Shown here one piece after another: positions 10,929 to 64,000 of a DNA stretch of 64,000 nucleotides (the first letter of the stretch is position 1; the number at the start of each line of letters is the position of its first letter). The stretch lies in contig SAXG01000076.1 in the NCBI GenBank assembly GCA_012932865.1, positions 1-64,000 of the forward strand, in the 5' to 3' direction. The notes under the pieces were generated by a model that had not been told where the DNA came from, did no database searches, and saw only the letters and a list, made by a program, of their open reading frames with translations. Origin of the DNA: Amylostereum areolatum (Eukaryota; Basidiomycota; Agaricomycetes; Russulales; Stereaceae). The position numbers and the translations under genes were made by a program.

Positions 10929-11864
10929 TCGTTCTGGAAAACGAGTATTCTCGGTGGTGTGGTTTCGTATGTACGTGTTTGCTCTCGGTCGTTGTATGCT
11001 GCTGAAATGTGTAACCTTGTTTTTATTGGACGTCAAAGGGCTGCTGAGGGGCGACACGGTTAGCTAGCTTTGACTTCGTCGGAGAAAGATGCCGACGGCA
11101 TCCTCTTCCAGGAGCTTTGCTTTCTCCCAACATCATATTCCTCAACCCGCGTGACGCACCCTGCCCGATCTTCGGTGTTTGGGCTCTGCGCTGAGAATCA
11201 TCTGAGCGCCGTTTCTTCGAGAACGGTGCGTATATTCGGACCTTTCGCCACTCGCGCCGCCTTGACATCGGTGAAGGTATTTTTTCTGCCGTATGGCATT
11301 ATAAATAGCAGCGCGGTCACAAGGACCCAGGGCTCTGTTTGTTCACACTCCCTTGCTTATTTTAGTGCGTGTGTTCAGGGAACGCACGGACCAACCCGCG
11401 TTTCCGCCAGCCCGCGAGCGTACGTCTTGCGTTACATGTCGCGATTTCGATAACCAACGCACGCGCCGACGGTCCCGGTATCTGTCCTCTGGTTCACGCC
11501 TATCTTTCGGGGGCGTTCCTTCCCTCTGCGGAGAGCACAACCTGACGTGCTCGTCCCTCCGAGCTCGAGCACCAGCCGTCCGCCGCGCGCAGAATACTCG
11601 GCTCGCCCCTCGTAAGTGCGCGCAAACGATCTGATCCTCCGACTGGCCACGTCGAACCAAAAACGTGTATTCTCGGGAGGTCGTCGGATGCTTTCCCCCC
11701 ATGGCCGAGCCTGCGTTCGGATGTTCTTGTTATTTCTCCGAGCACGCAGCTGTTCAAGCGTTCGGTCCTCTCTCCGCACGCACAAGGCCGAAGCAAGTGT
11801 ACCGCGACGACCGTGCCATCGCGAAGTTCTTTGTCAAAAATATCCGCCCCGTATGTCCCATGGG
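10929..11864. other. Intergenic / GH7 upstream region
   Basis: No convincing gene. A TATAAATAG sits at 11300-11308, but no good ORF follows it closely. The right part is the promoter region of the GH7 gene. Confidence 0.5.
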
Positions 11865-11872
11865 TATATAAG
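11865..11872 (+). promoter_or_regulatory. TATA box of the GH7 gene
   Basis: TATATAAG lies 66 nt upstream of the GH7 start codon, leaving a short leader of about 35-40 nt, as usual for strongly induced fungal secreted enzymes. Position and sequence are seen directly; function is inferred. Confidence 0.65.
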
Positions 11873-11937
11873 ATGACCGGGGGCACCCCCCACCATCCTC
11901 ATCGGTCAGCCGAACTCGCCAGACACCCTCGAGCAGC

Positions 11938-13461
11938 ATGTTCCCCACTGCAGCGCTCATCGCCTTCTCCCTCGCCGCCGCCGTCCGTGGCCAGCAGGCC
12001 GGGACGCTCACCGCGGAGACCCACCCGTCGCTGCCCATCGAGTCCTGCTCTGCGGGTGGCAGCTGCACGACGCTCCAGACGAAGGTCGTCCTCGACAGCA
12101 ACTGGCGCTGGACCCACGACGTCAGCAGCAGCACCAACTGTTACACCGGCAACACCTGGGACGCCACGCTCTGCCCCGACGACGCGACCTGCGCCCAAAA
12201 ACTGCGCGCTCGACGGCGCCGACTACAGCGGTACGTTTCGGCTTCTGCCTCGTCCTCATGCACATGTGTTTCTTCTTGTGCTGACCACAAGCTCCGGCTG
12301 GGTAGGCACCTACGGCATCACCGCGTCCGGCAACGGGCTCACACTCAAGTTCGTGACCCAGAGCGCGCAAAAGAACGTCGGCTCGCGCACGTACCTGCTC
12401 AAGGACGACGAGACCTACCAGACGTTCAACCTCAAGAACCAGGAGTTCGCGTTCGACATCGACATGTCCCAGCTTCCCTGCGGCCTCAACGGCGCGCTCT
12501 ACTTCGTGCAGATGGACGCCGACGGCGGCATGTCCAAGTACTCCGGCAACAAGGCCGGGCGCCAAGTTCGGAACTGGCTTACTGCGACTCGCAGTGCCCG
12601 CAGGATATCAAGTTTATCAACGGCGAGGTGCGTCTTTTCTCTGCCCCTCGCCTCTGCCTGCGATGTTACCAGGCTGGTATTCATTACCGTGACCGGACAG
12701 GCCCAATGTCCAGGGTTGGGCACCTTCCCCCAACGACACCAACGCGGGCACGGGTCAGTACGGCACCTGCTGCACGGAGATGGACGTCCTGGGAGGCCAA
12801 CTCGATGGCCGAGGCGTTCACTCCGCACGTCTGCACCGTCGACGGCCAGACGCGCTGCTCGGGCACTGACTGCGGCGAGGCGACGACCGCTACAACGGCG
12901 TCTGCGACAAGGACGGGTGCGACTTCAACTCGTGGCGCATGGGCGACCAGACCTTCCTCGGGCCCGGGCTGACCGTCGACACCTCCTCCAAGTTCACCGT
13001 CGTCACGCAGTTCCTCACCTCGGACAACACGACCACCGGCACGCTGAGCGAGATCCGGCGTCTGTACGTGCAGAACGGGCAGGTGATCCAGAACTCGAAC
13101 ACGAACATCCCCGGCATGGACACCTTCAACTCCGTCAGCGACGACTTCTGCAACGCGCAGAAGACCGCGTTCGGCGACACCAACTCGTTCGAGACCCGCG
13201 GGGGAGTGGCGGCCATGGGCGACGCGTTCGAGGCCGGGATGGTGCTCGTCATGTCCATCTGGGACGACCACGCCGTCAACATGCTCTGGCTCGACTCGGA
13301 CTACCCCACCGACGCCGACCCCTCCCAGCCCGGCATCTCCCGCGGCCCCTGCGCCACCACGTCGGGTGTCCCCACCGACGTCGAGTCGCAGAGCCCGAAC
13401 GTCCAGGTCACGTACTCCAACATCAAGTTTTGGCCCGCTCGGCTCGACTTACACTGCGTGA
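11938..13461 (+). CDS. GH7 cellobiohydrolase (reducing-end exocellulase), no CBM
   Basis: Secreted family GH7 enzyme that releases cellobiose from reducing ends of cellulose. An 18-residue signal peptide ([18 protein letters not shown]) precedes the classical mature start [13 protein letters not shown]. Family landmarks follow: [20 protein letters not shown], the TCCTEMDV catalytic region (nucleophile Glu, helper Asp, acid/base Glu in E-x-D-x-x-E), [16 protein letters not shown] and VMSIWDDH. Introns at 12231-12305 and 12628-12700. It ends soon after SNIKF, so there is no linker or CBM1. The frame is interrupted at six places, each a one-base gain or loss in a homopolymer: 12197-12201, 12557-12559, 12579-12580, 12788-12789, 12879-12880 and 13428-13431. 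No in-frame nonsense substitution was seen, so assembly error fits at least as well as pseudogenisation. The stop at 13459-13461 assumes correction of the last indel. Confidence 0.85.
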
Positions 13462-13967
13462 ACGTACGAATATTTCGTCTTGGATCTCTGGCACTGCCGT
13501 CGCACCGCGCTGACACCCTGTCTCGCAGCCTTTCTTTCTCCGGTCTCGTCGCGTTTCTTTCGGTTCGTCGAAGTGTCGGTCCTTGGTAAGGGTCGTTTTC
13601 TGAGTCGTTTGCGATGTGCGGCACGCGTTGACCGCTTTCTCGCTAGCATGCATGGGCGTCCGGTCATGAACGCGTACGATAAAATCGTGAGTGATACCTT
13701 TCCCTCACTCAGAGGCCTTTACTGACCACTGTGCGACAGAATATTTTGTGTACCGTGCCTCGCATCTTCCCCTTTTGTAATTGCGCACAATAAAATTGTG
13801 TTCGGAACATCCCCTGGGCGTGACTTTGAGCTTCAGTTCGATGATGAGATTTCGCAAGGTTTCGACATTGCAACTGCAAAGCGAAAACTGTCACTTCGTC
13901 GTAAGTACTTACTGTACAGTGGGCCACCGAGAAGGCCGTGAAGTTCCCTACGCGCTCACACTTCGAC
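13462..13967. other. Intergenic between GH7 gene and NAD(P)-binding gene
   Basis: Convergent 3' ends face each other here. No coding signal beyond shadows; it should hold both terminators, but I could not place them. Confidence 0.5.
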
Positions 13968-54222: not shown

Positions 54223-54761
54223 TGTTACAACTTGTCCAAGGTACTTCATTTCCCATTGCCTTACTAGGAAGGACGTCGCTAAACGACGGATTACGACTGT
54301 GCCCCAGCTCGTAACCGTCTCAACGACGCTGCCACAGATCGTCACCGTCCCAACGGCATAGCCTCGACGGTGCCACAGTTCGTCACCGTCCCAACGGCAT
54401 AGCCTCGACGGTGCCACAGTTCGTCTCCGTAGATACTTGATACAACCATCGCCGAATGTACATATATTTACTCGACCTCCTTTCTTATAAAAGGAGGCTC
54501 AACGAGCGAGCTATTCCCCAGCTCGTTCTCTTTGTAAATACAGGACTGTTCTGAATAAGAACCTCCTCTTAAGCACTAAAGAGAATCCTAAGCATACTAA
54601 GTCGATAGGCTCGCCTAAGTCTTCCGCGAAGACTTACTGCTTTATCTATCGACCTTCACCTTCGTATAAACCGAGACGTCTGGATCACCTGATCCCACCT
54701 CTCACGCGTAAGAGTACTGTAGCCTGAGCCGCTTGTCACGTGATAAGGACCGTCCATAACA
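54223..54761 (+). repeat. A-family 5' LTR of the plus copy
   Basis: 539 nt, TGTTACAACTTG to CGTCCATAACA. TATAAAA at 54486-54492 lies inside an inverted repeat CCTCCTTT...AAAGGAGG. The predicted RNA start AGCTCGTTCT is at 54520-54529. The U3 holds a ~41-nt tandem repeat (GTCACCGTCCCAACGGCATA and neighbours, twice). The R/U5 part has an AAGTCTTC-CGC-GAAGACTT hairpin. Confidence 0.92.
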
Positions 54762-54763
54762 CT

Positions 54764-54773
54764 AGAACGAGCT
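54764..54773 (+). promoter_or_regulatory. Putative self-primer binding site
   Basis: AGAACGAGCT, 2 nt beyond the 5' LTR, is the exact reverse complement of AGCTCGTTCT at 54520-54529, the predicted RNA 5' end. No tRNA-type TGG primer site is present at this position. Confidence 0.7.
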
Positions 54774-54831
54774 CTCCTCTACACTAGCTCACCCTACAGT
54801 TTGGCGCAGAGCGTCAAACGAAACACCCACC

Positions 54832-56892
54832 ACGGAGTCAGCGGAACAACCCGCTGAAAAAAGACCATCAGATTTTGAGATCCCTCAACTCCAATCAAAC
54901 TGCAGTCGAGACTTCCCTAACGGAAACGAAGATCATCGCTGGACATTTGACCCCTATCATCTCCTTTTTTACTACGACGGAACCCTCGTTGCGAAAGAAA
55001 GCAAAGGGACATACGCATACCAGTGGAACCCACCCATATACAGATACAACCTTCCCCCAGCAGCAGAATACTTCAAAGATAGATCCAAAAGAGAAAAGGA
55101 AGACGGAAGCTACGACAATTCACATTGGAAGCGCCCAGATTATTCAAGACCTCATATCGGGCCCCTCTCATCAGAAGAACTCTGGAAACACCCGGACGCA
55201 CAGAAAGTCGAAGAGAAACCTTACACCGGGAATATTAAGGCCTACTGGGAATTTGATCCCGATACCGACACAGCCGACACGACAACCGAACCACGGAACC
55301 CTCAAACCGAACTCCAGCATCCTCAAGAACCCGCAGCAGGCACACAACCTCCAGAAGAAACCGCGCCAGAACCTAAGAGAACTGTATCAAACCCCCAAAT
55401 TAAGTCCGATTCCGGAAGAAGTCGAGAAGGCAGCCCATCGAGCGCAGCAGAAACGGAAAGACATACAGAAGAATCAACAAGATCTCCATCAATTAAATCA
55501 GACAAAGACATCTTCGAAACCAGAAAAGGAAGACAAGGAAACCTATTCGGAAGACCAGAGAACGTCACGACAATGGGAGACGCTACCACCTCGATACCCA
55601 ACCCCGCCGCCACACTTAGCAATGTCCCCCCTGGAGAAACTAATATACCGCTCCAGACGCCTGCAACTCCAACACCAGCCGATCCCGCGAAACCAAGACA
55701 TAAGACTCGATTCCCCATAGGATTCGGTTTAGGCGAACCAATAGGATGGAAAGCACCATCACCGCGACCATCATCGCCTTCCGACCGATCAGCTGATAAT
55801 GAGAAAGGAAAAAAGGTTCAGGACTATGTATTCGGAAGAGGAGCAACCGCAGATCTTCCGGAAGGACCGAGACACCCACCATGGCATTCACCACCGGGAG
55901 GAACAGGAACAATTGGATCTAAACCCGAAGACAAAGACAAAGGATTCAAACTGAACGCACTAGGAGTATACGACGGAAGAGACAGAGCGAAGGCAGCAAA
56001 ATTCGTTGAACAATGCGTACTTCGCTTCATAGCATTCCCCAACGCATACAAAACCAACATGCGTAAGATAACCTTTGTACTCTCGCATCTCACAGATGGA
56101 CCCGCCCTTCACTGGGCGTCCCTCTTAATAAGCAAGATCGATAAGATACGAGAGCGCGGCATAGATCCAGAAATGCATCTTCCATGGACGGGATTCCGTG
56201 ACTACTTCTTAGAAACCTTTGGAGAAATAGACCCCGGAAGAGACGCGAGATTCAACATACAGCGCCTGGAACAAGGCACTATGGAAACCAAAGATTACAT
56301 CACGGTCTTTAGAGACTATGCTATGGAAGCTGGTTACGATCATAAAGCATTGATCGACCAATTCAAGAGAGGACTGCGCAACGATATAGTAGTCGAGATT
56401 CTCAAGAGAGATCACATCTCGAACGATATCGACGAATGGTATGAACTCGCACTGCGCATCGATAATAACTGGCGAGAAGCTCAAGCATTCCAACGACATT
56501 ATACGAGACCAATGAACCCGACGAGTGATCTCACCCTCCTATACAAGAAACCACAGCCGTACGTCCCATTCCGAAGAGGAAACGGAAATAAAGGGAATGT
56601 TACTACCGCCAGAGCCGCTCAGACCGGAAACAACAACCGAAGCTTCAGATGCCTTACCCCGCAAGAACGTACAGAACTTCAGAAATCGGGATCGTGCTTC
56701 TATTGTCGGAAACCAGGACATATCTCCAGGAACTGCCCAGAGAAACGTACCCAAACAACGATCAATGCACGAACGACGAACTTAACAGAGGAAGAATCCC
56801 CGATTGATCAGATCACCAAGCTTGTGAACAAGATGGACAGTGAAACGTTCGCACGCACTGCCAACATGTTCAAAGACAATCAGGGTTTTTGA
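54832..56892 (+). CDS. gag: A-family gag with predicted ACG start
   Basis: 686 codons from ACG (context CCCACCACGGAG), or 439 from the first ATG at 55573. The N-terminal extension is Trp/Tyr-rich and protein-like (WTFDPYHLLFYYDG, TYAYQWNPPIYRYNLPPAAE, GNIKAYWEFDPDTDT) and stop-free from 54766. The ATG-started part has the Ty3-type capsid region (about 55990-56510) and the zinc knuckle CFYCRKPGHISRNC (56695-56736). Gag forms the particle and packages RNA. The frame is -1 relative to pol with overlap from 56844 to 56892. If the ACG is not used, the extension would be an unusually long AUG-free leader. Confidence 0.82.
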   Translation, partial: TESAEQPAEKRPSDFEIPQLQSNCSRDFPNGNEDHRWTFDPYHLLFYYDGTLVAKESKGTYAYQWNPPIYRYNLPPAAEYFKDRSKREKEDGSYDNSHWKRPDYSRPHIGPLSSEELWKHPDAQKVEEKPYTGNIKAYWEFDPDTDTADTTTEPRNPQTELQHPQEPAAGTQPPEETAPEPKRTVSNPQIKSDSGRSREGSPSSAAETERHTEESTRSPSIKSDKDIFETRKGRQGNLFGRPENVTTMGDATTSIPNPAATLSNVPPGETNIPLQTPATPTPADPAKPRHKTRFPIGFGLGEPIGWKAPSPRPSSPSDRSADNEKGKKVQDYVFGRGATADLPEGPRHPPWHSPPGGTGTIGSKPEDKDKGFKLNALGVYDGRDRAKAAKFVEQCVLRFIAFPNAYKTNMRKITFVLSHLTDGPALHWASLLISKIDKIRERGIDPEMHLPWTGFRDYFLETFGEIDPGRDARFNIQRLEQGTMETKDYITVFRDYAMEAGYDHKALIDQFKRGLRNDIVVEILKRDHISNDIDEWYELALRIDNNWREAQAFQRHYTRPMNPTSDLTLLYKKPQPYVPFRRGNGNKGNVTTARAAQTGNNNRSFRCLTPQERTELQKSGSCFYCRKPGHISRNCPEKRTQTTINARTTNLTEEESPIDQITKLVNKMDSETFARTANMFKDNQGF
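56884..56892 (+). promoter_or_regulatory. -1 ribosomal frameshift site at gag end
   Basis: In the gag frame the codons are CAG GGT TTT TGA, giving the heptamer G GGT TTT (X XXY YYZ) directly followed by the stop. A -1 slip joins pol, which is open from 56844. The identical site occurs in the minus copy. Confidence 0.75.
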
Positions 56893-59800
56893 ATCGTCCT
56901 TCAACCACGGCTGTTGAAAGGACACAGACAATGAACTTTTCAAATCGGTCTCCTGTGCAGGAAACAGGAGATGACGTAAATAGAACAGTGTATATAAGGT
57001 CATACCAAGATGGGGCAACGCACGCTCCATCAATTCATATACCTGTTACGTTTCATGGAAAGTTCCGTAAAGCCGCCGCAAAGGCACTGCTAGATAGCGG
57101 AGCAAGCAGCACCCTGATCCATCCAGATTTCGTACGAAAACACAAGATGAATCTGATCCAACTGAAGAAGCCAATACCGATATATAACGTTGATGGATCT
57201 AGGAACACTCTAGGAGAGATCAAACAGAAAGTGTACCTTCCAATGACGATGGAAGGGATCAACGGAGAAATTCACCACGAAAACTTAGGATTGTTCGTCA
57301 CAGCCCTGGGAGGAGACGAAGTAATCTTAGGAACCCCTTGGCTCAAGAAACACAATCCTCATATCGATTGGAGAAAGAGACAGATTACACTACAAACATG
57401 TCCAGGTACGTGCTTCACTACCAGTAAAACAATGATCATCCAAGGAAAAGACGAACACTCTCTACAATCATTCGAAGAACAGAAGATCAACCATCACGCA
57501 ACGATAGAAGAACAAGAAGACCCCGAATCCAACTCCGATCTCGCCGATATCAGGATAGTCAGAACATTCCATGGAAAAACTGACGTAGAAACGATGCCGA
57601 TTGCAAAAGAAGCAAACGAACCCGGTATTTGGATAACAGCAAGAGCAACCAAGGCACAAGAACTCGCAGAAAGAGCGGCCATAGGAGAGAAGAAGAAGAC
57701 ACTCGATGAGATGATTCCGTCTAGTTACAAACAGTGTCAGAAGGTATTCGAAAAGAAAGCGTCGGAACGCTTCCCAATCAGCAGACCTTGGGATCACGCG
57801 ATAGACCTGACTGAAGGATGGAAACCTCGAAATTGCAAAGTGTACCCAATGACGGTACCAGAACGGAAGGAACTGGACACATTCATAGACGAGCATCTAC
57901 GAAAAGGGTACATCCGAGAATCAAAATCAGAGATATCATCGCCCTTCTTCTTTATCAAGAAGAAAGATGGATCTCTTCGACTAGTACAGGACTATCGCTA
58001 TCTTAACTCGATCACGGTCAAAAATGAATACCCGATACCGCTCATCTCAGATCTCATCGACAAATTAAAGGGCGCTAAGATCTTCTCAAAGCTCGATCTC
58101 CGATGGGGATACAACAATGTTCGGATCAAAGAAGGAGATCAATGGAAAGCTGCGTTCAAAACAAACAGAGGCCTTTTCGAACCAATGGTAATGTTCTTCG
58201 GACTAACCAACTCACCCGCAACATTCCAAGCAATGATGAACGCACTATTCAAAGAATTAATAGACACCGGAAAAGTAGTGGTCTATATGGATGACATACT
58301 GATATTTACAGAAACACTCGACGAACATAGAAAACTGATGAAAGAAGCCCTCCAACTTCTAGAACGGAACGATCTATTCCTCAAACCGGAGAAGTGCTTC
58401 TTCGAACAACCATCGATCGAGTACCTAGGCGTGATAATCACGCACAACAAGGTACAGATGGATCCGGTCAAAGTCCAAGGGCTAGCCGAATGGCCCACAC
58501 CGAGGAAAGTAAAAGAAGTCCAATCATTCCTCGGATTTGGAAATTTCTATCGACGCTTCATCAAAGACTATTCCAAGATCGCCAGACCCCTATTCCAGCT
58601 CACAAAGAAAGACCACGAATGGAACTGGACGGCCGAATGTGAACGCACCTTCGAAAGACTGAAACGAGAATTCACATCGTCCCCAATCTTAATCATGCCC
58701 GATGAAAACAAACCATTCCGCATAGAGAGTGACGCCTCCGATTTTGCGTACGGAGCCATCCTATCGCAGCCAGATGAGATCGAAAGATGGCATCCGGTCG
58801 CGTACCTATCCAAATCACTATCTCCCGCGGAACAAAATTACGAGATATACGACAAAGAACTCTTAGGAGTAGTGAAAGCCTTAGAACACTGGCGACACTA
58901 TCTAGAAGGAGCGAACCACAAAGTCGAAATCTGGACAGATCACAAAAATCTAGAATATTTCACAACAGCTCAGAAACTCAATCGACGACAAGCACAATGG
59001 AGCTTGTATCTGTCCCGTTTCGACTACACCTTGGTACACAAACCAGGAAGTACAAACAAGGCAGATGGACTTTCTAGAAGACCAGATCATAAGGAAGATA
59101 TTCCAGACAACGACGACCGCATCCTGCTTCACCCTTCGGTTTTCAGGGCTAGAGCCACCGGAAGAGGAACAGTCGAAGCAGTCGGAGACAAAGAACTTCT
59201 CAAAGAACTAAGAAACTTCTCACACCTAGATGATGAAGTTTGGACGGCGTTAGATACGATCAAAAGATCGGGACCACGCACCCTCGCAAAAGGAATCGAA
59301 GATTGGAACTTCGAGAATGATCTGATCATCAGAAAAGGAAAGATCTATGTGCCACAGAATCTCAAACTCAGACGCATGATCCTAAAATCGCATCATGATC
59401 TAGAAACGATTGGACATCCAGGCGAAATGAAAACTCTGGAGCTAGTACAAAGAAACTTTTGGTGGCCAAAGATGATTTCCTTTGTAAAAGGTTATGTTCA
59501 AGGATGTCCCGTATGCCAGTCAACAAAGAATGTCACGCATCCGGCGAAACATCCATTACAACCTACGGAAATACCAGAACGACCATGGGAAACAATCACA
59601 TCAGATTTCATTACAGATCTTCCGATCTCCAACGGATTCGATTCGATCAACGTAGTCGTCGATAGGTTCACCAAAACCGCAGTATTCACGCCGTGCCTAA
59701 AGACGATCAACGCAGAAGAAACGGCTGACCTTCTGATCGACAATGTTTACAGACGATTTGGACTATGGAAAAGAATGATATCGGACAGAGGCCCTCAATT

Positions 59801-60776
59801 CGCATCCAAAGTATTCCAATCCATCTGCGAAAGCCTCGGAGTTATCTCGTCGCTCAGTACAGCGTATCATCCCCAGACGGATGGCGAAACAGAAAGAGTG
59901 AATCAAGAGTTAGAACAATATCTTCGAGCATTCTGCAACGGAGATCAAACGAATTGGGCAAAACTTCTACCAAAAGCAGAATTTGCACACAATATAAAAC
60001 AACATTCAGCTACGGAAGCCTCCCCATTTGAACTCCTACACGGGTATCAACCGGTTTTTAACCCGGCAATACCAACCGATCCGCGAATACCGACAGCCGA
60101 AGAAAGAATAAAGAACTTTAAGGACGCATGGGACAACGCGGAAGCAAGTCTGGAAATAGCTGCCAAATTAATGAAAATGCAGCATGATCAAACGTTCACA
60201 CTGCGAGATCAACTCAAACAGGGTGACCAAGTATGGTTAGACGGAAAAAACCTTAACACGGTATACCCGAAAACTAAACTAGCACCAAAGCGATTTGGCC
60301 CATTCAAAATCAAAAAAGTAATAGGACCAGTAACCTATCGCTTAGAACTACCGGCGAAGTGGAAAATACATCCGGTATTTCACGCGACACTATTAATTCC
60401 GTTCAAAGAAACAGAACAATATGGAGAAGCTTACGAAAAGCCGCCTCCGGAACTAATAAACGATGAAGAACTCTATGAACTAGAAACAATAGTAGCCTCG
60501 AAATTAGACAAACGATATTCCGAACCATTACACTACTTCGTAAAATGGAAAGGATACCCAGACTCCGGTAACACATGGGAACCAGCATCTAATCTCGAAG
60601 GATCAAAAGATGCAATCGCAGAGTTCCACCGGAATAACCCCAAGGCACCGAAGTTGCCACCACAGCCAATCAAAGATACCAACACAGAAGCCACTGATCG
60701 TGACGAAACTGAAGCAACGCAGCAAGAACGAAGACCAGCGAGACGAAAGAAACGCAAGACGAAAGTAAGACACTAA
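56889..60776 (+). CDS. pol: A-family pol: protease, RT, RNase H, integrase, chromodomain
   Basis: 1295 codons, intact; no ATG start, expected as a Gag-Pol fusion by frameshifting. Numbered from 56889: retropepsin ALLDSGASSTLI (Asp 69); RT from about 345 with [12 protein letters not shown] and VVYMDDILIF (Tyr-Met-Asp-Asp at 466-469); RNase H with ESDASDFAYGAI (Asp 615); integrase HHCC from His 835 (HHDLETIGHPGEMK, CPVCQS), catalytic triad Asp 906, Asp 966, Glu 1002 with the usual D-x35-E spacing; chromodomain about 1193-1250 (HYFVKWKGYPDSGNTWEPAS); basic tail. The chromodomain places it in the chromoviruses and should direct integration to methyl-histone-marked chromatin. Confidence 0.95.
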   Translation: MNRPSTTAVERTQTMNFSNRSPVQETGDDVNRTVYIRSYQDGATHAPSIHIPVTFHGKFRKAAAKALLDSGASSTLIHPDFVRKHKMNLIQLKKPIPIYNVDGSRNTLGEIKQKVYLPMTMEGINGEIHHENLGLFVTALGGDEVILGTPWLKKHNPHIDWRKRQITLQTCPGTCFTTSKTMIIQGKDEHSLQSFEEQKINHHATIEEQEDPESNSDLADIRIVRTFHGKTDVETMPIAKEANEPGIWITARATKAQELAERAAIGEKKKTLDEMIPSSYKQCQKVFEKKASERFPISRPWDHAIDLTEGWKPRNCKVYPMTVPERKELDTFIDEHLRKGYIRESKSEISSPFFFIKKKDGSLRLVQDYRYLNSITVKNEYPIPLISDLIDKLKGAKIFSKLDLRWGYNNVRIKEGDQWKAAFKTNRGLFEPMVMFFGLTNSPATFQAMMNALFKELIDTGKVVVYMDDILIFTETLDEHRKLMKEALQLLERNDLFLKPEKCFFEQPSIEYLGVIITHNKVQMDPVKVQGLAEWPTPRKVKEVQSFLGFGNFYRRFIKDYSKIARPLFQLTKKDHEWNWTAECERTFERLKREFTSSPILIMPDENKPFRIESDASDFAYGAILSQPDEIERWHPVAYLSKSLSPAEQNYEIYDKELLGVVKALEHWRHYLEGANHKVEIWTDHKNLEYFTTAQKLNRRQAQWSLYLSRFDYTLVHKPGSTNKADGLSRRPDHKEDIPDNDDRILLHPSVFRARATGRGTVEAVGDKELLKELRNFSHLDDEVWTALDTIKRSGPRTLAKGIEDWNFENDLIIRKGKIYVPQNLKLRRMILKSHHDLETIGHPGEMKTLELVQRNFWWPKMISFVKGYVQGCPVCQSTKNVTHPAKHPLQPTEIPERPWETITSDFITDLPISNGFDSINVVVDRFTKTAVFTPCLKTINAEETADLLIDNVYRRFGLWKRMISDRGPQFASKVFQSICESLGVISSLSTAYHPQTDGETERVNQELEQYLRAFCNGDQTNWAKLLPKAEFAHNIKQHSATEASPFELLHGYQPVFNPAIPTDPRIPTAEERIKNFKDAWDNAEASLEIAAKLMKMQHDQTFTLRDQLKQGDQVWLDGKNLNTVYPKTKLAPKRFGPFKIKKVIGPVTYRLELPAKWKIHPVFHATLLIPFKETEQYGEAYEKPPPELINDEELYELETIVASKLDKRYSEPLHYFVKWKGYPDSGNTWEPASNLEGSKDAIAEFHRNNPKAPKLPPQPIKDTNTEATDRDETEATQQERRPARRKKRKTKVRH

Positions 60777-60859
60777 GTGAGACTCAACGGCATTCAGGCG
60801 AATACACTGCCAACAAGGGGGGGATAAAAACCCTACGGGTTCAACAAGACAGATCACCA

Positions 60860-61114
60860 ATGTCCACCACCCCGAACGCAACCAACATCTCCTCTACCAA
60901 TCAGACCGTCTCACCCAACAATGTCGAACGCATCCGCCTCGTCTGCAACAGAGCACACCACACTCAACAGGAACGCACCCTCTGTGGAGACTGCTTCATC
61001 GCTCAATCGGCAGCAATCTTCGCAAATAAGTCAGTACCTCCTCCGTCTAGGTCAGGACCAGACGGAAGAACAGGGGGTAAGCCGATTAGAAGCATACAGA
61101 AGAACCCTAACTGA
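60860..61114 (+). CDS. A-family ORF A (plus copy)
   Basis: 84 codons from ATG, first gene of the 3' module, 83 nt after the pol stop. The core LVCNRAHHTQQERTLCGDCF keeps the C...HH...C-x2-C pattern of the minus copy while neighbouring residues differ. Overlaps ORF B (frame +1) from 60921. The stop TGA at 61112-61114 is 26 nt before the ORF C ATG, a spacing suitable for reinitiation. Confidence 0.6.
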   Translation: MSTTPNATNISSTNQTVSPNNVERIRLVCNRAHHTQQERTLCGDCFIAQSAAIFANKSVPPPSRSGPDGRTGGKPIRSIQKNPN

Positions 61115-62705
61115 AGCACCCGGATTCCTCACAGGTGCCAATGCAATCCCCGTGGCCCGGAGCGACGAAGGTCCCAACACCCGATTCCCCGATACTCGAG
61201 AATCAAATAGCCCACATGATAGCCGGAGTAGCGATCGAGCAGGCCAGGCAGCGGATCGACAACCTCAGGAGGGAGTCGGCCGACGTCCAGGGCATCCTGG
61301 AAGACCACAACAAGATGCTCGACGAAGAACTCCACCAGCTGGACTTGAGGTACCTGACGCTCTCGACCGAAATGGAGGAACGAGAGGTCAAGCTCCTTCG
61401 ACGATTCAGGAAGCTAGCGCAGCGGCTATACTCAACGTTGCAGAACTCCGAAAGTTCCTCACTGAAGTCGGACTCCGAGTCAACTGGCTCAACTGGGAAA
61501 GACATACCTTCCGTGCCACCTACGAAGGAGAAATCCTCCGAAGACGAATGGAAACTACCGGAGTTCCCCATATGTCGTCACGCGAAGGCCCCGACATCGA
61601 CCTCATCTTCCATGGACATCACATCTCCCCGGGCTATACTGTTCGACCCGATCCCATCGCATCCGCCCTCACCAGACCCCCGTTCCTTCCTAACGCCCCT
61701 CCACGACCCGTCACCGCCCCCACGCCACCAGGATCCTTACCCATCCCCGGCATCACCCAGATTAACCCCGTCCAGCCTCCCGTCGCTAGAAACGGATTAC
61801 CCGGAGAGCAGTTCAGACAGCCCCTGCCAAGAGAGCTATCGGGACAGTCCCTGGTCCTTCCAGAGCCCGGACAACCGACCGGACGACCGGTCAGCAGTCC
61901 GCGACCGATACCTAGGACACCTCCTCGGCTGCCCGCCGTGCCTAGACCGCCAACTCCATTCCCACTATCTGCTAGCGACGCTCCCATGCCGTGGCACGGA
62001 AACCCCGCCCCCTATCCCTCATTCCTACGTCCGCACCCCGACCACGCTCGAGATCCCGTCACCCAGGATCCCCGAGTCACCGCACAGCGACGTAAACATG
62101 ATTCTGTCGACCCCGACGGAAGACCGTTCAAGCGAATCAGAGAGTTCAGACTCCCCGATGCATCGGGTGAGGAAGAACTTCAAGGAACTCAAGAAGATAG
62201 TCGATCGGATGATGGAAGACCGCGCTCGCCGGAGACAGGAACTCAACCTAACGGACGAGTCGGACAGTTCAGCGGACAAATCGGACAGCTCGGCGGACAA
62301 ATCGGAGAAGGACGACAGGACGAAGGAAGTAGCCGAGAATCCCTCGGACCCATGGAGCGACGAACCAACCACGTGGACGCAAGAAAAGTGGGACGCGATT
62401 CCCTCGAAGCCGCGGAAACACTGCTGGAAATGCGGCAAGCGAGGCCATCTCCGCCGAGATTGTCCCCGTCGCAAGGGCGCTCCCCCTCACTTCCCCCGAT
62501 CTCGGTCCTACTATCCCCTCCGACCACAGACTCCTCTTCCTCACCCTCGCCCGGACCGTCCGGATATCAGTTACGGTCCAGGAACACTGATGTCCCACCC
62601 CCACCTCCGACGTACCGACGCTACCGCCCGCGCCCACAGGCAGCTTCTGGGATTCCTCACGCGACGCGAAAGCCTGACGCACGAAGCCGCCCAGCACGCC
62701 ACTGA
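60921..62705 (+). CDS. A-family ORF B (plus copy), overlapping ORF C
   Basis: 594 codons. The conserved middle block (ASAAAILNVAELRKFLTEVG, LRVNWLNWERHTFRATYEGE, GPDIDLIFHGHHISPGYTV) matches the minus copy closely, while the flanking Pro/Arg-rich parts vary and differ in length (594 against 566). The basic C-terminus ends RSRPARH. No recognised family. Shares 61141-62705 with ORF C in another frame. Confidence 0.65.
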   Translation: MSNASASSATEHTTLNRNAPSVETASSLNRQQSSQISQYLLRLGQDQTEEQGVSRLEAYRRTLTEAPGFLTGANAIPVARSDEGPNTRFPDTRESNSPHDSRSSDRAGQAADRQPQEGVGRRPGHPGRPQQDARRRTPPAGLEVPDALDRNGGTRGQAPSTIQEASAAAILNVAELRKFLTEVGLRVNWLNWERHTFRATYEGEILRRRMETTGVPHMSSREGPDIDLIFHGHHISPGYTVRPDPIASALTRPPFLPNAPPRPVTAPTPPGSLPIPGITQINPVQPPVARNGLPGEQFRQPLPRELSGQSLVLPEPGQPTGRPVSSPRPIPRTPPRLPAVPRPPTPFPLSASDAPMPWHGNPAPYPSFLRPHPDHARDPVTQDPRVTAQRRKHDSVDPDGRPFKRIREFRLPDASGEEELQGTQEDSRSDDGRPRSPETGTQPNGRVGQFSGQIGQLGGQIGEGRQDEGSSRESLGPMERRTNHVDARKVGRDSLEAAETLLEMRQARPSPPRLSPSQGRSPSLPPISVLLSPPTTDSSSSPSPGPSGYQLRSRNTDVPPPPPTYRRYRPRPQAASGIPHATRKPDARSRPARH

Positions 62706-62865
62706 GCAGTGGCTGTACTGGGAGGACGCAATGCTCCGCACTCAACAAGAACCACCCTCGCGCTTCAATCACTCCTGGCGCGTCGACGATCTCTTCTGGA
62801 AAGAGACAGATTGGGACTTGCAGGAAGCGGAGGAGTCGAAGGATCACTGGCCGGAGCCTTGGTAA
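61141..62865 (+). CDS. A-family ORF C (plus copy), coiled coil and CCHC knuckle
   Basis: 574 codons from the ATG at 61141. Coiled coil from about residue 20 to 110 (AIEQARQRIDNLRRESADVQ, YLTLSTEMEEREVKLLRRFR), then an acidic/Ser-rich stretch with a short tandem repeat (SSADKSDSSADKSEK), the zinc knuckle CWKCGKRGHLRRDC and the conserved C-terminal helix plus HSWRVDDLFWKETDWDLQEA. The repeat is absent from the minus copy. Probably nucleic-acid-binding and oligomeric; a second nucleocapsid-like protein is one reading. Confidence 0.75.
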   Translation: MQSPWPGATKVPTPDSPILENQIAHMIAGVAIEQARQRIDNLRRESADVQGILEDHNKMLDEELHQLDLRYLTLSTEMEEREVKLLRRFRKLAQRLYSTLQNSESSSLKSDSESTGSTGKDIPSVPPTKEKSSEDEWKLPEFPICRHAKAPTSTSSSMDITSPRAILFDPIPSHPPSPDPRSFLTPLHDPSPPPRHQDPYPSPASPRLTPSSLPSLETDYPESSSDSPCQESYRDSPWSFQSPDNRPDDRSAVRDRYLGHLLGCPPCLDRQLHSHYLLATLPCRGTETPPPIPHSYVRTPTTLEIPSPRIPESPHSDVNMILSTPTEDRSSESESSDSPMHRVRKNFKELKKIVDRMMEDRARRRQELNLTDESDSSADKSDSSADKSEKDDRTKEVAENPSDPWSDEPTTWTQEKWDAIPSKPRKHCWKCGKRGHLRRDCPRRKGAPPHFPRSRSYYPLRPQTPLPHPRPDRPDISYGPGTLMSHPHLRRTDATARAHRQLLGFLTRRESLTHEAAQHATEQWLYWEDAMLRTQQEPPSRFNHSWRVDDLFWKETDWDLQEAEESKDHWPEPW

Positions 62866-62907
62866 GCGCACGGACGAACTTTTACCCATCATGTGCACTC
62901 GGACTTT

Positions 62908-62910
<3 letters not shown>

Positions 62911-62946
<36 letters not shown>
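62911..62946 (+). repeat. (CAT)12 microsatellite
   Basis: Perfect 12-unit CAT repeat 45 nt after the ORF C stop. The minus copy has no expansion here, so it arose in this copy. In one frame it lies in a small ORF (62891-63136) whose later part, ITDCALTRTHIFLGLLY, is also open in the minus copy; whether that is a gene is unclear. Confidence 0.9.
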
Positions 62947-63202
62947 TGCCGTCACGCTTTCACGACTCATCGTTACGATACTCTTCGGACTGATCACGGA
63001 CTGCGCCCTCACTCGTACGCATATTTTCCTCGGACTTCTCTACTGTACCGGTTCCTATCGCTATGAGGAAGGCGAAACACTTGGTATTCTCTACGCGACG
63101 CGCTGGCCGCGCCGTTTACTTACGACTCAGTTTTGATTATGTACAAATCATCGCTTACGATTGCTGGCAATGATTACATCATTGCCCCTCCGCATCGTAA
63201 GG

Positions 63203-63223
63203 ATAAAAGGGAAAGCTATAAAG
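63203..63223 (+). promoter_or_regulatory. Possible internal promoter before ORF D (plus copy)
   Basis: ATAAAAGGGAAAG (63203-63215) followed by TATAAAG (63217-63223), 61-81 nt upstream of the ORF D ATG. The ATAAAAGG part is conserved in the minus copy; the second is not. Confidence 0.35.
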
Positions 63224-63283
63224 ACCACAACACCCTCAGACATCGTCTAAACAAACCCACTCGCACCACCCACACCAACCGAT

Positions 63284-63670
63284 ATGTCTTCCACCCTCGC
63301 CCCCTCATCGCGCAACCTCTCCACCACCGACTCCACTCCTCACACCACTCCTCCTCCCTCGCCCGTCCCTTCGCGCACTCCCACGCCCGATCCACGCGAC
63401 GACGAACTCCTTCGTCATCTCAAGCGAGTCACGGAGCTCCTAAGCCGTCCGGACGTCGCTCGCGCCCTGAAGAGGCCGAGAAGCCTCGACGAAGAAGCAC
63501 TGCAGGAATCGAAGCGGAGGTGCGGCATCAAAGGAGTCTTCAAGAGGCATGGACCCCGGTTCAGAGACCCCGACGACCCCGTCATGACGGCGAGGATAGG
63601 GCATAGGCTGGGATCTCCCACGATAGACAAAGAAGATATGAAAGTAGTAGAGTCGTGGGTAAAGCGGTAG
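63284..63670 (+). CDS. A-family ORF D (plus copy)
   Basis: 128 codons from ATG. Shares with the minus copy RTPTPDPRDDELLRHLKRVT, the KRPRSLDEEALQES segment and the ARIGHRLG motif; basic overall, Ser/Thr/Pro-rich at the N-terminus. Possibly nuclear. No family recognised. Confidence 0.65.
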   Translation: MSSTLAPSSRNLSTTDSTPHTTPPPSPVPSRTPTPDPRDDELLRHLKRVTELLSRPDVARALKRPRSLDEEALQESKRRCGIKGVFKRHGPRFRDPDDPVMTARIGHRLGSPTIDKEDMKVVESWVKR

Positions 63671-63742
63671 AATAGAATTCTATCGTTGAGGTCCGGACAA
63701 GGATATAAAGAGTGAACATCAGAAAGCGACAAACCCAGAAGC

Positions 63743-64000
63743 ATGATGCAATCAGCACAATCACCCGATCTCGCGATTTTCAATACACCCACTCCACGCT
63801 GGCTCATCGCCGTCATCAGCATCATCGTAGGACTTACGATCCTCACATTCATCGCATCAACAATATTCCTTCTCCAATGGCGGAGAGCGAGCGATCGACA
63901 GCATGTTCAAGACATCCCACTAGAACCGCTTCGATTCAGGAATCTACGAGACGTAGATTCTAGAGAGGGGGATAGTGTTACAACTTGTCCAAGGTACTTC
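63743..64000 (+). CDS. A-family ORF E (plus copy), membrane protein, incomplete
   Basis: Opens MMQSAQSPDLAIFNTPTPRW, then the membrane helix LIAVISIIVGLTILTFIAS and the basic stop-transfer QWRRASDRQ. Open to the window edge because it continues into the 3' LTR from 63976. If the 3' LTR equals the 5' LTR it would extend further than the minus-copy protein. Nearly identical to the minus copy outside the LTR. Confidence 0.65.
   Translation, partial: MMQSAQSPDLAIFNTPTPRWLIAVISIIVGLTILTFIASTIFLLQWRRASDRQHVQDIPLEPLRFRNLRDVDSREGDSVTTCPRYF
63976..64000 (+). repeat. A-family 3' LTR, first 25 nt
   Basis: TGTTACAACTTGTCCAAGG matches the 5' LTR start at 54223 exactly; truncated by the window edge. Confidence 0.85.

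Follow-up and report, generated by a model that had tools for sequence, protein, structure and literature searches.

The 3' accessory genes of the deltaretrovirus pX region (Tax/Rex) overlap in different frames and are expressed by alternative initiation on one RNA. Among fungal chromoviruses, which are Ty3/gypsy retroelements with a chromodomain, extra coding capacity is already in print: in the portions of the papers available to us, PMC2864245 labels an open reading frame (ORF) of unknown function as “add. ORF” in a figure, and PMC2774666 reports additional genes carried by a clade of fungal chromoviruses. Here, we analyzed a stretch of 64,000 nucleotides (nt) from the basidiomycete Amylostereum areolatum (contig SAXG01000076.1, positions 1–64,000; hereafter the window), which contains one chromovirus on the plus strand (plus copy) and a related one on the minus strand (minus copy). 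An initial annotation had claimed an accessory module of five ORFs, A to E, between pol and the 3' long terminal repeat (LTR) of both. We consider it likely that the plus copy represents a high-copy Ty3/gypsy chromovirus family whose 3' accessory module has four selected ORFs (B, C, D, and E), with B and C overprinted. The positions of the five ORFs in the plus copy and the lengths claimed for B, C, and D in the minus copy were confirmed (Table 1); ORFs B, C, D, and E are supported, and the module has four ORFs rather than five because ORF A, which shows no coding signal, is unsupported. The observation itself was thus correct and understated, since the core of the module is a long overprinted pair. 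The two papers above also mean that one accompanying statement, on fungal chromoviruses normally ending after the chromodomain, has to be qualified.

Comparison of the locus with described systems revealed that (i) the elements of PMC2864245 and PMC2774666 share with it the chromodomain Ty3/gypsy type and extra coding capacity of unknown function, whereas an overprinted pair or a four-ORF module is not described in the available portions of these papers, nor is such a module mentioned in those of PMC3248453 and PMC3411680; (ii) the spumavirus-like DrFV-1 likewise has three additional ORFs without known relatives beside gag and pol, but it belongs to a vertebrate retroviral lineage, and overlap is not described in the available text (PMC2774666); and (iii) unlike the deltaretrovirus pX region, the module has no Pfam match to such families, its overlap takes in ~520 codons of both proteins, and its host is a fungus. 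The open-licence literature searched yielded no LTR retrotransposon for which an overprinted pair is described; subscription papers, supplements, and transposon libraries were outside the scope of this search. Extra ORFs in chromoviruses are already known, and the overprinted arrangement is new. To our knowledge, overprinted pairs of such length are rare.

ORFs B and C, which are read in different frames, share ~1,560 nt (61141–62702). At the level of sequence evolution, they are an overprinted pair, both frames of which are maintained by selection. Synonymous shuffling of the plus-copy C closed the B frame in all 2000 trials (mean 12.7 stops); C was likewise closed in all 2000 shuffles of B (mean 8.0 stops), and B in all 2000 shuffles of the minus-copy C (mean 13.1 stops). 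The remaining frames of the overlap were considered as genes and rejected because they are not kept open: the third forward frame has 23 stops against a shuffle mean of 16.2, and the 3 antisense frames have 26, 13, and 13 stops against means of 26.0, 11.3, and 13.8. Natural variation was read from an alignment of 50 genomic copies, composed of the two window copies and 48 fetched ORF C loci (49 loci other than the window copy's own, L010–L058, less L043, whose match to C was incomplete). Changes present in two or more copies (shared) were read as those of lineages that kept copying, and changes present in one copy only (private) as largely post-insertion mutations. Shared stop-making changes were nearly absent from both frames, with 1 observed versus 17.0 expected in B and 1 versus 12.8 in C, and private ones numbered 11 versus 12.1 expected in B and 5 versus 9.3 in C. 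Among the 175 shared changes that are silent in C, a single one creates a stop in B, where 11% would (p = 3e-8).

A joint regression on the shared changes in the overlap gave log likelihoods of −1193.9 with B only, −1186.0 with C only, and −1162.9 with both, so that adding B to C (p = 9e-11) and adding C to B (p = 3e-14) each improved the fit. In this model, stop-making changes occurred at relative rates of 0.035 in B and 0.047 in C. Spurious frames used as controls gave p = 0.32 (D +1), 0.054 (D +2), 0.16 (B frame over the C tail), and 0.53 (third frame of the overlap). Changes silent in C were also suppressed within the overlap: the C-silent transition rate was 0.427 there for all changes, compared with 0.787, 0.675, and 0.681 in the C tail, D, and E, respectively, and 0.282 for shared changes, compared with 0.617, 0.603, and 0.507.

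The C-silent rate has a local minimum (0.188) at 61531–61725. For B residues 171–247, shared transitions that are silent in C and change B were seen at 6 of 71 sites, and those silent in B and changing C at 21 of 72 (p = 0.0023); these B residues are near-invariant among 16 aligned copies. The relation is reversed in the stretch just upstream (37/79 versus 15/95, p = 1.2e-5) and in the next two stretches downstream (31/103 versus 18/110, p = 0.022; 45/95 versus 28/116, p = 0.0005), and the last stretch of the overlap shows no difference (22/100 versus 17/113, p = 0.22). The stretches were chosen after the alignment had been viewed, and these p-values are uncorrected for that choice. A local minimum of this kind is what an RNA structure or packaging signal within C could produce without any protein B; such a signal would not, however, predict the avoidance of stops in one particular other frame, nor would it predict that B-silent changes are tolerated where B-changing ones are not, and we consider this explanation very unlikely. 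The swap of constraint at residues 171–247 suggests that each protein keeps its own key segments where its partner is tolerant. In these substitution patterns, C is under the stronger constraint across most of the overlap; the B frame stays open all along it, and B is the constrained partner in residues 171–247, where C looks linker-like.

Several observations weigh against B as a selected protein or limit the counts given above. The B nonsynonymous rate over the overlap is 0.86 of the silent rate for shared changes, which alone gives p = 0.19 (for all changes, 0.756 and p = 0.00056). In a simpler count of shared changes, NN/SN is 0.90 (p = 0.44), and in single pairs it is 0.72 (p = 0.049, plus copy versus minus copy) and 1.06 (p = 0.83, plus copy versus L058). 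One spurious control frame, D +2, comes close to significance. Private changes also yield a B term (p = 0.0018) and are thus not a perfectly neutral class, and since the 50 copies are related and recombining, counts of changes approximate events. Open frames spanning no less than 90% of the length of the plus protein were found in 42 (A), 34 (B), 42 (C), and 43 (D) of the 50 copies, which leaves B short of this length in 16 copies and C in 8. No confident fold was predicted for B by AlphaFold2 (AF2), with a mean predicted local distance difference test (pLDDT) score of 35. The case for B rests on stop avoidance, the suppressed C-silent changes, and one segment. The B effect in the joint model comes mainly from stops, and the average amino-acid constraint is weak; B is thus in the main a protein under loose constraint whose frame has to remain open. 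The same weak constraint, together with the lack of a fold and of any homologue found, would fit a reading in which C is the only gene and B is open by compositional accident, a Pro/Ser/Arg-rich C being poor in codons whose partners make stops. This reading is contradicted by the shuffles, none of which opens B, by the deficit of shared B stops, by the contrast between the gain from B and that from the third-frame control, and by the B-specific constraint in residues 171–247; we regard it as extremely improbable. Gap lengths were not relied on: multiples of three make up 36 of 54 gaps in the overlap and 56 of 283 in the C–D spacer (a tally by copy rather than by event), but only 5 of 105 in D. 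With open D frames in 43 of 50 copies, the low figure for D is probably due to the splitting of gaps by the aligner.

For the other parts of the module, omega was computed from shared changes as count ratios weighted by mutation type and is not a maximum-likelihood dN/dS. By codon position, shared variable sites number 30/27/84 in ORF D (omega ~0.32), 27/23/45 in ORF E (omega ~0.46), and 9/4/28 in the C tail (omega ~0.14). By these patterns, D is strongly coding and E moderately so; stop avoidance taken alone is not significant for D (1 versus 2.9) or E (1 versus 4.6, p = 0.054). ORF E has no fixed 3' end; read into the LTR in the 50 copies, its frame runs for 50 to 147 codons, and the position of its stop varies, usually falling within the LTR. 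ORF A lies largely within the 5' end of ORF B. Its ATG is kept in 48 of 50 copies and its minus-copy counterpart stays open across 90% or more of the plus-copy length; it was rejected as a protein gene because its shared variable sites (22/15/21, p = 0.48) carry no codon-position signal. Its shared changes, observed versus expected, are 23 versus 19.1 synonymous, 40 versus 42.4 nonsynonymous, and 0 versus 1.5 stops (omega ~0.78). The spacer (62866–63284 in this count) is equally uniform by position modulo 3 (53/48/53). Two places hold short, highly conserved blocks that lack a coding signal: 60794–60832, before A, where the block includes GATAAAA, and 62980–63283, in the spacer before D. These blocks are possibly promoter, processing, or splice sites.

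The module is present in the genome in many copies. In the 57-Mb assembly, a degenerate zinc-knuckle pattern from C (up to 2 mismatches) has 177 matches, an abundance that makes the constraint on each frame readable site by site from natural copies; the reversed pattern has no match. ORF D was found at a minimum of 150 genomic places among 221 candidates, and 9 of the 150 contain a stop by our count. Since the loci of the 50-copy set were picked by ORF C similarity, that set cannot itself show how often the module is lost, and the presence of the module was surveyed instead at pol 3' ends, 128 of which were scored among 1158 candidates; this linkage count used listed places only (100 of the 177 knuckle matches). 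At least 103 of the 128 ends are followed by a listed C or knuckle and at least 98 by a listed D; at least one of these follows 115 ends, and neither follows 13. The three of these 13 exceptions that were examined all begin the module (362, 362, and 151 of its first 364 bases matched) and then break off, one of them interrupted at another LTR copy of the same family. Copy counts may be somewhat high because some contigs look duplicated (C145 and C161 have the same match positions). Two further Ty3/gypsy families, with pol frames of 1418 and 1562 codons and a chromodomain read by eye, were represented by a single locus apiece; in the ~2–2.7 kb past pol, ORFs do not exceed 214 codons, and blastn matched nothing there to the module. 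The survey supports the proposal of an accessory module of a distinct chromovirus family, and neither neutral decay of the ORFs nor lineage copies without the module were seen. Identity to the plus copy jumps between adjoining module segments among L009–L058 (in L012, for example, 98.6% in ORF C and 85.7% in D), and this mosaic suggests frequent template switching among family members.

The protein encoded by ORF C contains a zf-CCHC zinc knuckle (Pfam, E value 5.5e-5). For structure prediction, B and C were each represented by 16 copies, taken from 33 (B) and 42 (C) frames with a coverage of at least 95%, among which the plus copy is counted twice (window and L009). The AF2 model of C has a helix at residues 17–107 (pLDDT ~70–91 over residues 21–100), predicted to be a coiled coil, and a second helix at residues 339–373; the mean pLDDT is 44.8, and regions outside the helices are mostly unreliable. 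The C knuckle is identical to that of Gag at 8 of 18 positions, and the PDB sequences nearest to C are nucleocapsids, as would be expected if C were a duplicated Gag serving as a second, nucleocapsid-type structural protein of the particle. We consider this origin unlikely, because no significant similarity between C and Gag was detected beyond the knuckle, and no capsid domain, by which a Gag would be recognized, was found in C by the Pfam scan or in the AF2 model.

No Pfam or PDB match and no database relative was found for B. In a set of 5.8 billion proteins, no relatives at an E value of 0.001 or below were found for B among 7995 scored candidates or for C among 7993. The pol protein had 2114 matches at E values up to 1e-50 in the same set, with identities of up to 65% among the best 120 of the 2114; named relatives among the matches listed come from Lyophyllum shimeji, Sparassis crispa, and Dentipellis fragilis, all of them Agaricomycetes. 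As identity does not exceed 65% for any pol listed, a sister lineage may simply be absent from the protein set. IMG/VR scans with C and with pol returned no match, and IMG/VR may omit records near this genome. A weak match of D to a designed protein in the PDB (E value 0.0068) was not taken as evidence.

The position of the module after pol is that of env, and ORF E has one hydrophobic, transmembrane-like segment by eye; on these grounds the module might be a degenerate or captured envelope region with an infectious, retrovirus-like cycle. However, no envelope family is among the Pfam matches at an E value of 1 or below for the module frames scanned, no transmembrane segment is seen by eye in B, C, or D, C is a zinc-knuckle protein, and E extends for only ~78 codons before the LTR. 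We therefore hold an envelope origin to be improbable. The product of E, as read from its sequence, may be a small membrane protein.

With its coiled coil and zinc knuckle, C would multimerize and bind the RNA of the element, and C with B would regulate the export, packaging, or translation of the genomic RNA. We put forward this role for C, as a multimerizing, RNA-binding regulator acting with B, tentatively and by analogy; it is the kind of job done in retroviruses by the RNA regulators Rex and Rev. The nearest functional parallel is CERV of the Caenorhabditis elegans element Cer1, which differs in being made from a spliced mRNA and for which the available portion of PMC10309623 describes no overlap along its length.

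The ORFs of the module would be translated from an RNA that is subgenomic, spliced, or started inside the element. In the plus copy, the first three ATGs between the end of pol and the start of C (60777–61141) belong to frames A, B, and C, in that order. ORF C would thus be reached most easily by ribosomes that scan past the starts of A and B, leaky scanning on one RNA being the simplest reading of this arrangement. The ATG of B is kept in 48 of 50 copies and that of C in 42 of 50; position −3 is A at the start of ORF B and C at the starts of ORFs A and C. Two points count against the reading of the module as a whole: the C start is ACG in 8 of the 50 copies, and an internal promoter is a live alternative for the start of the module RNA, as 47 of 50 copies have the motif GATAAAA ahead of A (~1% in shuffles). 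Some ACG-start copies keep C open. Internal TATA boxes before D and E are not general: TATAAA precedes E in 25 of 50 copies (6% in shuffles) and D in 6 of 50 (3%). Two other routes were considered and set aside: no slippery site for a −1 frameshift from A to C was seen by eye, and the splice considered by eye for a C–D fusion gives a stop.

The plus element (54223–64514; 10,292 bp) continues beyond the 3' end of the window. Its two LTRs differ at one position in an LTR–LTR alignment, and it is flanked by a 5-bp target-site duplication (TSD), GCACC; the insertion thus looks recent. Pfam matches of pol (RVT_1, RT_RNaseH, H2C2, rve, and Chromo at 3.1e-14) follow the Ty3/gypsy order with a C-terminal chromodomain, which confirms the chromodomain pol annotated upstream of the module and, together with the LTRs and the short TSD, assigns the element to the chromoviruses (Metaviridae). 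Differences between the plus and minus copies by codon position are 74/34/110 in gag and 55/32/224 in pol (56898–59689). Tf1/sushi elements are self-priming, with a primer-binding site (PBS) complementary to the 5' end of their own RNA. The putative PBS of the present element would be complementary to the predicted 5' end of its own RNA: in both window copies, its 10-nt complement sits just 3' of the TATA-like box of the LTR. Judged by its sequence, the arrangement thus resembles a self-priming layout. We know of no 3' module in Tf1. The first 269 codons of the gag frame (54766–55572) contain no ATG in either copy, differences between the copies in this region favor the third codon position (29/17/37), and an in-frame ACG lies at 54832 in the context ACCACGG; gag may start at a non-AUG codon. 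Elsewhere in the window, frames at 11546–13513 resemble, by eye, pieces of what we take to be a GH7 cellobiohydrolase gene, which suggests a plant-matter-degrading fungal host.

Table 1. Features of the plus element and of the module ORFs of the minus copy in the window
Feature	Positions	Strand	Remarks
5' LTR, 539 bp	54223..54761	+	LTR–LTR alignment, TSD
TATA-like box TATAAAA in 5' LTR	54486–54492	+	sequence read
Primer-binding site	54764..54773	+	complementary to 54520–54529; motif pair in plus and minus copies
gag frame	54766..56892	+	Retrotrans_gag, one CCHC knuckle
pol: protease, reverse transcriptase, RNase H, integrase, chromodomain	56844..60776	+	Pfam scan
ORF A, 84 codons	60860..61114	+	unsupported as protein gene
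ORF B, 594 codons, Pro/Arg-rich	60921..62705	+	overlaps C in another frame from 61141
ORF C, 574 codons, with a predicted coiled coil, a CCHC zinc knuckle, and a conserved tail at the C terminus	61141..62865	+	
C–D spacer	62866..63283	+	without codon signal
ORF D, 128 codons, basic, coding	63284..63670	+	
ORF E, one hydrophobic (transmembrane-like) segment	63743..64000	+	through polypurine tract into 3' LTR; frame end 64114
3' LTR start (LTR 539 bp)	63976..64000	+	continues to 64514 outside the window
ORF D of minus copy, 126 codons	40242..40622	−	
ORF C of minus copy, 558 codons	41038..42714	−	
ORF B of minus copy, 566 codons	41234..42934	−	

Taken furthest, these features might describe an independently evolved “complex” fungal retroelement, in which a four-gene set, with C and the overprinted B produced by leaky scanning and acting with E, would control RNA export, packaging, or cell-to-cell passage; we offer this as a speculative possibility that is rather doubtful at present. 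The locus suggests that a fungal retrotransposon family has evolved retrovirus-like accessory genes on its own, and why simple retroelements turn complex would thereby become a question that is directly testable outside animals.

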